NCBI RefSeq assembly: GCF_002975205.1
Contig: NZ_PCOC01000001.1
Span: 868,001 to 932,000, forward strand
DNA: 64,000 bases
Source: Ochrobactrum vermis
GTDB lineage: Bacteria; Pseudomonadota; Alphaproteobacteria; Rhizobiales; Rhizobiaceae
Direction of reading: 5' to 3'
Shown here: piece after piece, positions 39,997 through 44,710 of the stretch
Numbering within the stretch: the stretch's first letter is position 1
How the letters are laid out: each line of letters begins with the position of its first letter
The notes under the pieces: model-generated
The model's input: the letters and a program-made list of their open reading frames with translations, nothing else
Told to the model about the DNA's origin: nothing
Database searches by the model: none
Made by a program: the position numbers and the translations under genes

Positions 39997-40064
39997 GCTC
40001 CCTCATAAGGGTTCTGAACGGGCCGTCCCGTTCGTTGAGGAAGCGGGAAGGTCGTCCTTCCCGC
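39997..40064 (-). ncRNA. Guanidine-II (mini-ykkC) riboswitch of sugE
   Basis: Read on the minus strand, a perfect 9-bp stem with ACGA loop (40064-40043) is followed after 9 nt by a 7-bp stem GAACGGG with ACGG loop (40033-40016). The ribosome binding site GAGGGAG lies 12-18 nt after it and the sugE ATG at 39990. Two GC-rich hairpins with ACGR tetraloops ahead of the ribosome binding site define guanidine-II; guanidine binding is expected to raise translation of the exporter. Confidence 0.93.
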
Positions 40065-40086
40065 AAAGTCTTTTGTTCAGTGTACC

Positions 40087-40119
40087 CCCGAAAACCGTTT
40101 CACACTTTTCGGGTGCGCT
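40087..40119. repeat. Dispersed palindrome (type A), copy 4 (partial)
   Basis: CCCGAAAACCGTTTCACACTT then TTCGGGTGCGC; same family as the 31416 copy but missing one outer arm. It lies between the sugE riboswitch and the atpB stop. Confidence 0.65.
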
Positions 40120-40138
40120 CTATTCGTTTGTTTTTACG

Positions 40139-40183
40139 CATGTCTTTATCCCGAAACCGGTTCCCACTTTCGGGAGACATGCT
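40139..40183. repeat. Dispersed palindrome (type B), copy 1
   Basis: CATGTCTTTATCCCGAAACCG followed by GTTCCCACTTTCGGGAGACATG forms a long imperfect hairpin. It ends directly at the atpB stop codon. A second copy is at 55379-55424. Confidence 0.7.
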
Positions 40184-40933
40184 CTAGTGCGACGGATGCA
40201 GTGCATCGTTGAGATACATGCAGGTCAGCATAGTAAATACGTAAGCCTGAATGACCGCCATCAGCAATTCGAGTGCGGTCAGTGCGACGGTCATTGCAAG
40301 CGGCAGCACGGCCGTGACCATGCCGAGCGTTCCAAGGCTGCCCAGCCCGATGACAAAACCTGCAAAGACTTTCAGCGTAATGTGTCCGGCAAGCATGACG
40401 GCGAACAGACGAACCGAATGGCTGACCGGACGCGAGATATAGGACATGATTTCGATGGGCACGATGATCGGTGCAAGCACGACTGGCACGCCTGCAGGCA
40501 TGAACAGCCGGAAAAACCTGAAGCCATGCCGCACGAGACCGTAGATCGTGACCGTCAAAAAGACGAGCATGGCCAGCGCAAATGTTACGATGATGTGGCT
40601 CGTTACCGTGAAGGCATACGGGAACATGCCGATCAGATTGGCAAACAGGATGAACAGAAACAGCGAGAAGACGAGGGGGAAGAAGGCCATGCCTTTTTCC
40701 CCGGCGTTCTCGCGCAGTGTCTTCGACACGAATTCGTAGAGGATTTCGGCTGAGGACTGCCAGCGCCCCGGAACAACAGCACTCCGGCGGGTCGACAGGA
40801 ACATGAACGCAGCCGCGCCCAGCACTGTCAGGACCATGAAGAGTGCAGAATTGGTGAAAGCAACCGGCTGGCCGCCGATTTCGCCAAGTTCAACGATGGG
40901 CTTGATTGCGAATTGTTCGATCGGCCCTGCCAT
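40184..40933 (-). CDS. atpB: Solitary F0 ATP synthase subunit a (atpB paralogue), guanidine-II controlled
   Basis: The stator/proton-channel subunit of F0F1 ATP synthase. The 249-residue protein has the full family length and motifs: [43 protein letters not shown] and the C-terminal [14 protein letters not shown]. The essential Arg (E. coli Arg210) is Arg175, but the residue equivalent to Asn214 is Val179 where homologues normally have Asn. No atpI, atpE, atpF or atpX gene is adjacent, although these normally form one operon in Alphaproteobacteria, so this is probably a second, orphan copy. A guanidine-II riboswitch lies between its promoter region and the AGGAGG-like ribosome binding site, and the guanidinium exporter gene follows downstream. 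I infer a guanidine-induced alternative stator. Confidence 0.92.
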
Positions 40934-40941
40934 AGGACACC

Positions 40942-40991
40942 CTCCTATGGGGCCGTCCCCGAAGCGAACACAGGCACGGGTCGTCCCGCGC
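40942..40991 (-). ncRNA. Guanidine-II (mini-ykkC) riboswitch of the orphan atpB
   Basis: Read on the minus strand, GCGCGGG-ACGA-CCCGUGC (40991-40974, 7 bp with one G-U) is followed after 13 nt by GGGG-ACGG-CCCC (40960-40949). The ribosome binding site AGGAG (40946-40942) and the atpB ATG (40933) come directly after. Stem composition, loop sequences (ACGA then ACGG) and position are the same as in the sugE element and fit the guanidine-II consensus. The second stem is only 4 bp but all G-C. Confidence 0.85.
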
Positions 40992-41141
40992 GGCCTTGTA
41001 AATAGTGATTCTTGAGCAGCGAGGCAAGAGGGGCATCATTGTTATGGTCCAACAGAAACTTGATCACCCATCCCATGTATCAGCGAGCTTTTTCGGGTAT
41101 CCTGTCGTTCTTACCCATAGATTATGCCGGGAGATCGATCG

Positions 41142-42137
41142 ATGACCATCTCAAGACGTAATTTCATTGTTACAGCATCTGCTGCTGGAGCCGGATTGGC
41201 CTTGTCACCTCTGGAGCTCGCCAAGGCAGCAGCCGAAACAGGCAGTCCCAAAGTGCAACCCCCGTCGCAGATAGAAAATCCAGGCTTCCATCGCTTTCAA
41301 CTTGGTGATTTCGAGATCACCACGCTTTCCGATGGGCGCAGGGCAGGCGAAGCGCCCGAAAAGACATATGCTGTCGATCAGGACCCGAAGGTGGTCGCCG
41401 CGCTTCTCGAGGAAAACCTTCTGCCCGCCGACCGTTTCGTCAACAGCTTCACGCCGGTGCTCATCAATACGGGCAAGGAGCTTGTCCTGTTTGACACCGG
41501 TATGGGAGCAGGAGCCCGCGAAGCGGGATTGGGAAAATTGACCAGTGCGCTCGAAGCTTCAGGCTACAAGGCTGAAGATCTGTCTCTGGTGGTGCTGAGC
41601 CATTTCCATCCCGACCATATCGGTGGATTGATGGAGGGCGGCAAGCCGGCCTTCGCCAATGCGCGTTACGCCGCCGGACAGAAGGAATTCGACTTCTGGA
41701 CCGATCCAGCCCGGCTCGACAGTCCGGCAAAGACAGTCGCCGAAATGGTGGCCAAGAACGTCAAGCCTCTGGCTGAAAAGATGACCTTCCTGGGCGATGA
41801 CAGCGAGGTCGTTTCCGGTATTCATTCCGTGGCAGCTTATGGCCATACGCCGGGTCATCTGGCTTTCCGCGTTGAAACGGGCGGCAAATCGCTGATGCTG
41901 GTCTCGGATACGGCAAACCATTTCGTGATTACGTTGCAGCGACCCGAATGGCACGTTTCCTTCGATATCGACAAGGAAGCCGCCGTACAGACGCGCAAGC
42001 GCATGTTCGACATGATTGCGACCGAAAGGCTTCCGTTCATCGGCTACCATATGCCGTTTCCGGCACTGGCCTATCTCAAGCGGGAAGGCGAAGGCTATCG
42101 CTACATCGCTGAAACTTACCAGCTGCGCGAGAAATAG
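41142..42137 (+). CDS. Tat-exported metallo-beta-lactamase-fold hydrolase
   Basis: A 331-residue protein. The N-terminus is a twin-arginine signal (SRRNFIVTASAAGAGLALS, with cleavage near KAAA). The MBL domain has the zinc motif SHFHPDHIGG near residue 155, VAYGHTPGHLAFRV and VSDTANHF for the other ligands. Members include lactonases, arylsulfatases and similar hydrolases; no substrate can be assigned. ATG 41142 follows CCGGGAGATCGATCG. It is divergent from the guanidine-controlled atpB, 208 nt away; whether it belongs to the same response is unknown. Confidence 0.87.
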   Translation: MTISRRNFIVTASAAGAGLALSPLELAKAAAETGSPKVQPPSQIENPGFHRFQLGDFEITTLSDGRRAGEAPEKTYAVDQDPKVVAALLEENLLPADRFVNSFTPVLINTGKELVLFDTGMGAGAREAGLGKLTSALEASGYKAEDLSLVVLSHFHPDHIGGLMEGGKPAFANARYAAGQKEFDFWTDPARLDSPAKTVAEMVAKNVKPLAEKMTFLGDDSEVVSGIHSVAAYGHTPGHLAFRVETGGKSLMLVSDTANHFVITLQRPEWHVSFDIDKEAAVQTRKRMFDMIATERLPFIGYHMPFPALAYLKREGEGYRYIAETYQLREK

Positions 42138-43149: not shown

Positions 43150-43470
43150 TCAGGATCGCGGTGCGAAGAGAATGATGCATGTGCCGGCAAAAGCCGTGCA
43201 TGCGCCGACCACGTCCCAGCGGTCGGGGCGGGCGCCTTCGGCAAACCAGATCCACAAGATCGACGCGATGATGTAGATGCCGCCATAGGCTGCATAGGCA
43301 CGACCGGCCACGTTGCTTTCAATGAGCGTCAGCAGATAGGCGAACAATGCCAGACACACCATGCCTGGTGCCAGCCAGAACACTGACTTGTCGAGCTTCA
43401 ACCATGCCCAGAAGGCAAAACACCCGGCAATTTCAAAGAGGGCTGCGGCGGCGTATATTACGAATTGCAA
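43150..43470 (-). CDS. YnfA family (UPF0060) small membrane protein
   Basis: A 106-residue inner-membrane protein with four helices, starting with [20 protein letters not shown] and including [24 protein letters not shown], the hallmark of YnfA. YnfA proteins share the four-helix plan of small multidrug transporters. The start is a TTG at 43470, preceded by CAGGAGAGCAGCATC; no ATG fits the conserved N-terminus ([15 protein letters not shown]). The first 38 nt overlap the end of the O-antigen ligase gene, so it may be coupled to it. Confidence 0.88.
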
Positions 43471-44710
43471 GATGCTGCTCTCCTGATTGGCCTCTGGGTT
43501 TGAGCGAATGCTGATACCTGTATTCCAACCCTGCACAACCCCAGATGATCCCGAAAAGAAGATAAAAGTGTCGCCAGTGATCGGTGTCGATGACGTTGCC
43601 GATCAGGACGTGGCCGAGATAGGTCGCGTAGGCAACCAGGAGAAATGGCTGCCACGGGCGATTGCGAAACAGAAGCTTGAAGCCAATTCCGAGTGTCAGA
43701 AATGTCAGCGTCAGAAATGCCATGAAGCCGATCCAGCCATAGTCGAGCACGGCTTTGAGCCAGATATTGTGCGTATCCTCGCCGAACATCGGCCCGAACT
43801 CGAGCGGACCGATGCCAAGCGGATGCTGTGTTGCAAGGATCATTCCGAGCCAGTGCCGCGCAAAACGTCCGAGCCTCGCACTGTCATAGCTTTGTTCGAG
43901 ACGCGCGCGCTCGCGGAAAAAATCGCCGACGCCGGGTAGTTGCAGAATAATCAGGATCGCGAGAGCAATCGTTACAATGGCCAGCAGGCCGATCACTATC
44001 AGGCGCAGCCGAAAGCGATTACTGTTGTTTTGCAGGAAGAGCACACCGAACAGAATGACGAAGGAGAGCGGAACCATCGCCCACGCCGCACGTGAGAAGG
44101 ATACCAGAACGCCCAGCGTGAGCACGCAGCAGAACGGCAGGTAGACAGCCACATCGCGCGCACCGCCGCGCATGACGCGGTAAAGCGTCCAGGTCAGCGG
44201 CAGTATCAGGAAAGGCCCATAGACGTTGGGATCCTGAAAAGCGCCCTGCGCCCGCCCGTAGCGCGTGAAGATTTCTGCTCCGGGAAAGAGGCCGAGATAG
44301 CCTGCAATGCCGAGCAAGGAGGAAAGTGCGCCCACAAGGAGATAGGCGTTGAAGATGGTCTTTAGACACCTGTAATCGGCTTCTATGGCAGCGGCGAAGA
44401 ACACCGATGTGAAAGCCAGAAAGAGTGAAACTGCGATATAGAGCGGAGCTTTCTTGACGTCCGCCATCTGCATGACCGAAATCAAGCCGCCGAAATTGAA
44501 CACGGCAAAGAGGGCCAGCAGCACAAGGCTGGAACGGGTCAGCCGCAGTCCGAACAGCAATGCCAGCGCGATCAGACCGGCCATATAAAGTTCATAGGGC
44601 GCAGGCTCGCTCATCACAAAGCCGAGCAGAAACACGCCGATGCCGATTGCGGTGTTGGCGATGAGGCGATTGAGCGCGCGTTTGCGCGCTACATCAGCCG
44701 GGAGCATCAT
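43433..44710 (-). CDS. O-antigen ligase/polymerase (Wzy/RfaL family)
   Basis: An inner-membrane protein of about 425 residues that joins polysaccharide repeat units or attaches them to a carrier. It has 10-12 hydrophobic helices and the Wzy_C-type periplasmic loop [19 protein letters not shown] and [27 protein letters not shown]. The upstream glycosyl-1-phosphate transferase gene ends at 44752. An in-frame TTG at 44755 overlapping that stop could add 15 residues; I give the ATG at 44710. It belongs to the 43.4-53 kb polysaccharide locus. Confidence 0.85.

Follow-up and report, generated by a model that had tools for sequence, protein, structure and literature searches.

The locus described here raises the question why a riboswitch for guanidine should stand in front of a gene of the ATP synthase. 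In a stretch of 64,000 nucleotides from the Ochrobactrum vermis genome (contig NZ_PCOC01000001.1, positions 868,001 to 932,000), called the window below, an atpB gene for subunit a of the F0F1 ATP synthase is preceded by two hairpins, which the original prediction, made from the sequence alone, had taken for a guanidine-II (mini-ykkC) riboswitch. Our answer, held with about as much confidence as doubt, is that the element is a genuine guanidine-II riboswitch that turns on, at the level of translation, a second and dedicated isoform of subunit a, which functions while guanidinium is present. The switch and its conserved pairing with atpB are well supported; the guanidine tolerance of the isoform is what we infer.

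The predicted hairpins were both found on the minus strand exactly where they had been placed. The P1 hairpin (GCGCGGG-ACGA-CCCGTGC, 40991-40974) with an ACGA loop is joined by a linker of 13 nucleotides to the P2 hairpin (GGGG-ACGG-CCCC, 40960-40949) with an ACGG loop, and AGGAG (40946-40942) and the ATG of atpB (40933-40931) follow downstream. The covariance model of Rfam, which had been proposed as a check, matched RF01068 at 40992-40948 with 35.5 bits at a gathering cut-off of 32, and the identity as guanidine-II was thereby upheld. Within the window the twin-hairpin pattern occurred at two places only, before atpB and before sugE. A chance pair of hairpins was rejected, as 0 of 100 shuffles reproduced the pattern. 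The element had also been likened to the one before sugE. The loop order, ACGA and then ACGG, is indeed the same, but the spacing to the start codon differs: P2 ends 15 nucleotides before the ATG of atpB and about 28 nucleotides before that of sugE, where the predicted fold has the ribosome site covered by the P1-P2 linker, unlike in the atpB leader.

The product of this atpB gene is a full-length subunit a, with 219.7 bits to PF00119 and 370.6 bits to NF004482 (cut-off 225). Its structure model had a mean pLDDT (predicted local distance difference test) of 76.7 and found the subunits a of solved ATP synthases as top fold matches; by these profile scores and fold matches a misassigned gene was rejected. 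A second atpB is present elsewhere in the host genome in the order atpI-atpB-atpE-atpF', as read by eye from the open reading frames (ORFs), so that the gene in the window is an orphan outside the atp operon, as had been claimed. The two copies are 59% identical and belong to separate clades, and a recent gene duplication was therefore rejected. Exactly two AtpB genes were found in each of the 39 genomes searched, where the orphans are 69-82% and the operon type 53-66% identical to the query. Since the host genome has a single c-subunit gene and the proton-path residues described below are all kept, the orphan subunit probably swaps into the same Fo as the operon copy.

The pairing of aptamer and atpB was followed in relatives by scanning one genome per species of a public genome collection, which gave 163 relatives, of which the best 80 were kept. 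Twin ACGR hairpins were found upstream of atpB in 76 of these 80 loci with a loose script and in 68 with a strict one; at locus L056, which has a short leader, the loose script had paired the wrong hairpins and the strict script found the true ones. Judged by their record titles, the loci with the pairing belong to Brucella/Ochrobactrum, Pseudochrobactrum, Falsochrobactrum, Aquamicrobium, Ensifer/Sinorhizobium, Rhizobium, Neorhizobium, Agrobacterium, Shinella, Mesorhizobium, Phyllobacterium, Aminobacter, Pseudaminobacter, Nitratireductor, Mycoplana, Aquibium, Kaistia, Bosea and Afipia, together with bins labelled Tardiphaga and Reyranella. Rfam was run on 24 of the 80 loci, namely 13 chosen for variety, 7 found by the loose script only and 4 without hairpins. 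All 13 of the first set were above the RF01068 cut-off before atpB. Three of the seven reached it (L091 with 35.4, L107 with 32.9 and L093 with exactly 32.0 bits), while L059, L087 and L105 stayed at 31.6 and L097 at 25, so that 16 of the 20 script-positive relatives reached the cut-off. No sugE match was found beside atpB in 45 of the 76 loci, with up to 4 kb examined on each side; the pairing thus persists without an adjoining sugE.

Two further samples were drawn by taxonomy. In a family sample of 151 genomes, with an intact orphan-type atpB defined by more than 370 bits (the next match had 324 bits), RF01068 was located less than 260 nucleotides upstream on the same strand in 9 of the 10 intact orphans among the matches listed. 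The tenth, G437, is the gene of L097 and has degenerate hairpins only. An eleventh orphan (G462, L201) was seen with its aptamer present and the gene cut by an apparent insertion sequence at the contig end. In an order sample of 297 genomes, all four orphan-type genes among the matches listed (at least 355 bits) had RF01068 upstream on the same strand. The operon atpB copies listed in both samples had no RF01068 nearby, as judged by eye. The pairing is conserved across more than 20 genus names, and its spread in the relatives and in the family sample led us to reject an oddity of this genus only.

The stems were examined in an alignment of 45 of the 76 aptamers, with 500 shuffles for comparison. 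The stem cells were paired to 95.2%, above all 500 shuffles, and the covariation score was 0.342 versus a shuffled mean of 0.170, with none of the 500 as high. The loops and the inner closing pairs were invariant or nearly so. In the predicted ligand-free fold of the atpB leader, P1 is kept and P2 is open, and the 3' strand of P2 forms part of a hairpin in which the AGGA of the ribosome site and the start codon are paired. In 30 of the 76 loci the leader is short, with P2 at most about 25 nucleotides from the start codon, and in 24 of these 30 the P2 strand was predicted to pair with the Shine-Dalgarno sequence or the AUG, versus 10.2 expected (from single-base shuffles, uncorrected for kinship). 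The sequences that would achieve this masking differ between the loci. Such masking corresponds to the translational ON design known for the guanidine-II class (PMC12186494; here and below, papers are cited from excerpts). The long leaders have 95-264 nucleotides between P2 and the start codon, with a conserved extra hairpin directly after P2 (e.g. L046, L060, L105). In the long leaders, open frames frequently stop close to the start of atpB and might couple their translation to it, but the frames, start codons and indels were inconsistent.

The orphan proteins form a group of their own. A tree and a signature table were made from 83 orphans and 38 operon copies, a subset of the operon copies seen; the frameshifted orphan L055 was excluded from the protein counts. 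A single branch separated the two groups (support 93/88, present in 92% of 200 bootstrap trees), and therefore the orphan line is probably old. The pairwise ratio of non-synonymous to synonymous substitution rates (dN/dS) was 0.030-0.111 in 7 of 8 pairs, one of them with saturated dS, and 0.244 in the remaining pair of nearly identical sequences. Judged by these ratios, the orphans are under purifying selection.

The essential arginine R175 and the residues H184, E222 and Q229 were invariant in both groups, including all 83 orphans. Four residues past the arginine, every orphan has a valine (Val179), whereas the operon copies have asparagine (35 of 38) or serine (3 of 38, all from Pseudochrobactrum-type genomes: L139, L131 and L150). 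Met225 was found in 83 of 83 orphans and Ala107 in 80 of 83, neither occurring in the 38 operon copies, and His172 was present in all 83. The two best matches in the PDB, 5dn6, which we take to be from Paracoccus, and a yeast protein, have asparagine at the valine position. Compared with the operon AtpB, the orphan shares the fold, the length, the essential arginine and the proton-path residues His, Glu and Gln, but differs by its clade, its site outside the operon, its own riboswitch, valine for asparagine, Met225 and mostly His172.

By its offset from the arginine, Val179 corresponds to aN214 of Escherichia coli. There, aN214 and aQ252 terminate the inlet channel and adjoin the guanidinium group of aR210 as well as cD61 (PMC9447477). 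Replacement of aN214 by Val, Leu, Gln or Glu reduced the ATP-coupled proton conductance and retained growth on succinate (PMC11121307), and aN214L had the largest effect on the pH dependence (PMC8754430). The asparagine otherwise conserved in subunit a was absent from all orphans, and their membership in this family stands because the residue is not strictly defining: other subunits a naturally have glycine or hydrophobic residues at this position (PMC8754430). The E. coli aN214V and aN214L mutants are non-polar at the same position and still grow on succinate (PMC11121307); in the orphan, by contrast, the valine is natural and fixed, and it belongs to a putatively inducible isoform that has more changes in the same two helices.

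What else is placed under this switch was taken from the family sample, where RF01068 occurs at 74 places. Of these, 60 were fetched, and the scan covered 87 of the 108 candidate ORFs; in the resulting counts the ratio of places to matches may differ from one. The Pfam matches of the next ORFs were SMR (small multidrug resistance) exporters (34 ORFs), PACE-type (proteobacterial antimicrobial compound efflux) chlorhexidine exporters (14), DUF1989 enzymes (8), Na_Ca_ex exchangers (3), a cut atpB (1) and EamA (1). Nine of the 14 remaining places were intact atpB genes. The PACE-type ORFs, which belong to the chlorhexidine efflux family PF05232, include those at L190, L208 and L216. A Na_Ca_ex gene was found upstream of atpB in 10 of the 80 loci, directly 5' of the riboswitch-atpB unit at L054, L061, L069, L070 and L109, and three further guanidine-II places of the family sample precede Na_Ca_ex exchangers.

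Five Agrobacterium-type loci (L081, L088, L098, L102, L112) have four aptamers in 1.7 kb (L081:1763-3846), and in the four of them that were run through Rfam all four aptamers were above the cut-off. The aptamers precede atpB, an MrpF-like gene, a gene for a Na_Ca_ex exchanger and a small ORF that is conserved and has a hydrophobic stretch. This ORF codes for 56 residues in L102, with a longer open frame in the others. Two more MrpF genes were found elsewhere in each of the five genomes. As an MrpF-like gene also follows a guanidine-II aptamer, atpB is not alone among the subunits of larger complexes in having this switch.

Table 1. Features of the switch region in the window
Feature	Position	Strand	Evidence
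Guanidine-II (mini-ykkC) aptamer 5' of atpB	40948..40992	-	RF01068 35.5 bits; covarying homologous aptamers
Predicted expression platform hairpin	40922..40955	-	Minimum-energy fold of the leader
Orphan atpB, F0F1 ATP synthase subunit a, 249 aa, Val179 for the usual Asn	40184..40933	-	PF00119/NF004482; signature positions
Second guanidine-II aptamer, 5' of sugE	40019..40063	-	RF01068 47.0 bits
sugE-type SMR exporter, 105 aa	39673..39990	-	PF00893 98 bits; NF008512 129.2 bits (cut-off 126)

Between atpB and the sugE aptamer (Table 1) a BASRCI27-like palindromic element was seen on the minus strand (40086-40193; 42.2 bits, below the Rfam cut-off of 59.8), with a second, smaller BASRCI408-like hairpin inside it at 40088-40112. 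Weak matches of this kind occurred also in L047 and L105, and the element is perhaps a dispersed repeat. Near the switch are genes for a TAT-signal (twin-arginine translocation) metallo-hydrolase, a distant relative of the AidB lactonases (41124-42137, plus strand), and for a YnfA/UPF0060 membrane protein (43150-43536, minus strand). A promoter scan gave matches at chance level only.

We propose that this arrangement works as follows. Without guanidine, the 3' strand of P2 would help to mask the Shine-Dalgarno sequence and the start codon, and binding of guanidinium would close P2 and free both for the ribosome; these two steps are suggested by the folds and by the mechanism of the class. The orphan isoform would share its inducing signal with the guanidinium exporter SugE and would take the place of the subunit a from the operon at the single c-ring of the cell, with an inlet half-channel that lacks the conserved asparagine beside the essential arginine. 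Free guanidinium, the same chemical group as the side chain of this arginine, may disturb the contact between subunits a and c in the normal motor, whose Fo the isoform, with its non-polar residue beside the arginine, may keep working or non-leaking while guanidinium is present. We know of no inducible counter-isoform against arginine-mimetic inhibitors. For arginine mimics, an action at the a-c interface has been proposed (PMC8873251). These inhibitors, such as bedaquiline and amiloride derivatives, share with our proposal the idea that a guanidine-like group competes with the arginine of subunit a, but they are large drugs and not free guanidinium.

Several observations weigh against this explanation. 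The covariation has weak points, with double changes at 7 of 12 pairs, a number reached by 32 of the 500 shuffles, and an outermost P2 pair that fails in 24 of the 45 aptamers. The leader fold of the window has a z-score of only -1.6, and 13 of 200 shuffles fold as well. Long leaders make up 46 of the 76 loci, and the masking was predicted from the short ones. Four of the 80 orphans are without an aptamer by script and by Rfam, even at an E-value of 5: L047, L049 and L052, which are Pseudochrobactrum-type (L049 is labelled Bacillus subtilis and presumably mislabelled or contaminated), and L078 from Shinella daejeonensis. His172 is not exclusive to the orphans, as it is also found in 3 of the 38 operon copies and in 5dn6. 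The excerpts of PMC8873251 argue that not every arginine mimic can inhibit, and none of the literature passages shows an inhibition of Fo by small free guanidinium. Finally, the full-length orphan is missing in 20 of 35 genomes of the genus, several of which keep the sugE switch.

This loss was followed in detail. Of the 35 genomes, 15 have the orphan in full length, 3 in pieces (G002, and the less than 90% complete G001 and G006, whose operon copies are broken as well) and 4 as remnants only (G010, G014, G018, G022), and in 13 none was seen. Two aptamers about 200 nucleotides apart were found in G014, G022 and G023; the first two have an intervening remnant of 25-26 codons, and in G023 nothing was found there. 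G010 retained a shortened atpB. The loci of G014, G022, G023 and G010 (L153-L156) have both aptamers, with the atpB between them deleted or shortened. The frequent loss, with the sugE switch sometimes kept, means that the orphan is dispensable; it is an accessory gene dropped by some lineages.

The chief rival explanation keeps the switch and the exchange of the subunit but sees the isoform as a brake, and we regard it as rather unlikely. The valine would lower the proton flow through Fo and spare the proton-motive force for proton-driven guanidinium export by SugE and others, and the isoform would not be guanidinium-resistant as such. This would agree with the lowered proton conductance of the E. 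coli Val and Leu mutants (PMC11121307), with the altered pH dependence of aN214L (PMC8754430), with a regulon dominated by exporters, and with the islands that some atpB genes share with an MrpF-like subunit and a cation exchanger. However, the remaining inlet residues are fully kept, and the whole protein is under strong purifying selection, which suits a functional stator better than a crippled one.

The gene lies apart from the atp operon and has its switch class in common with exporters, and the orphan AtpB might for this reason act outside F1Fo, on its own or together with a different partner, such as in the transport of guanidinium or cations. We know of no subunit a that acts alone, and the retained fold and proton-path residues (Arg, His, Glu and Gln) make such a role improbable. 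An even smaller chance is left for a passenger gene that landed between a riboswitch and sugE, with a control that has no meaning for guanidine; the frequent loss in the genus and the paired aptamers left behind in three genomes would suit it, whereas the recurrence under many genus names and in loci without sugE, the single clade, the purifying selection and the covarying stems do not. A look-alike that senses another ligand at atpB is hardly credible, for although the identity of the ligand is deduced from sequence, the loops and inner closing pairs are almost unchanged in the 45 loci and match those of the sugE element in the same genome.

The aptamer at atpB is like those of RF01068 before sugE/gdx, efflux genes and genes of the guanidine carboxylase pathway in its architecture, loops, stems and predicted translational platform, but it controls a subunit of a bioenergetic enzyme, whereas efflux proteins and metabolic enzymes are named as targets in the excerpts of a review (PMC12186494). 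The original prediction knew of no F0F1 subunit under the control of this class, and the literature search indeed found no paper that connects a guanidine riboswitch with a gene of the ATP synthase; subscription papers and supplements, e.g. the first mini-ykkC gene lists, were outside its scope, and a table entry there is possible. In the excerpts used, one study screened Nitrospirales genomes for guanidine riboswitches and compared ATPases separately (PMC12342949), and another names a mini-ykkC in one of its tables and, at a different place, an ATP synthase gene (PMC3521395), with no link drawn in either. Guanidine appears as a reagent in PMC12119724, with no link to ATP synthase control, and the excerpts of PMC12186494, PMC7266159 and PMC12508155 do not mention the ATP synthase. 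A search for an extra atpB gave nothing relevant among the matches listed.

It is an open question why guanidine is sensed by so many bacteria. That a guanidine switch is conserved on a subunit of the rotor-stator kind speaks for a target which guanidine harms, and not merely for routes of its removal. We tentatively suggest, with less than even confidence, that guanidinium is a natural poison of Fo, since the essential arginine of subunit a has it as headgroup, and that Hyphomicrobiales possess a spare stator subunit, induced by a riboswitch, with which the same rotor goes on turning. This subunit would, in some Agrobacterium-type genomes, belong to the four-switch island with the MrpF-like subunit, the Na+/Ca2+-exchanger-type antiporter and the small ORF, where several cation-translocating machines would be refitted at once. 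As the residue in question has already been mutated in E. coli by biophysicists, the idea is directly testable. If true, it would be a natural case of an inducible subunit exchange in the ATP synthase. In conclusion, the recurrence of the pairing in many related soil bacteria suggests that their ATP-making motor is partly changed when guanidine is present.
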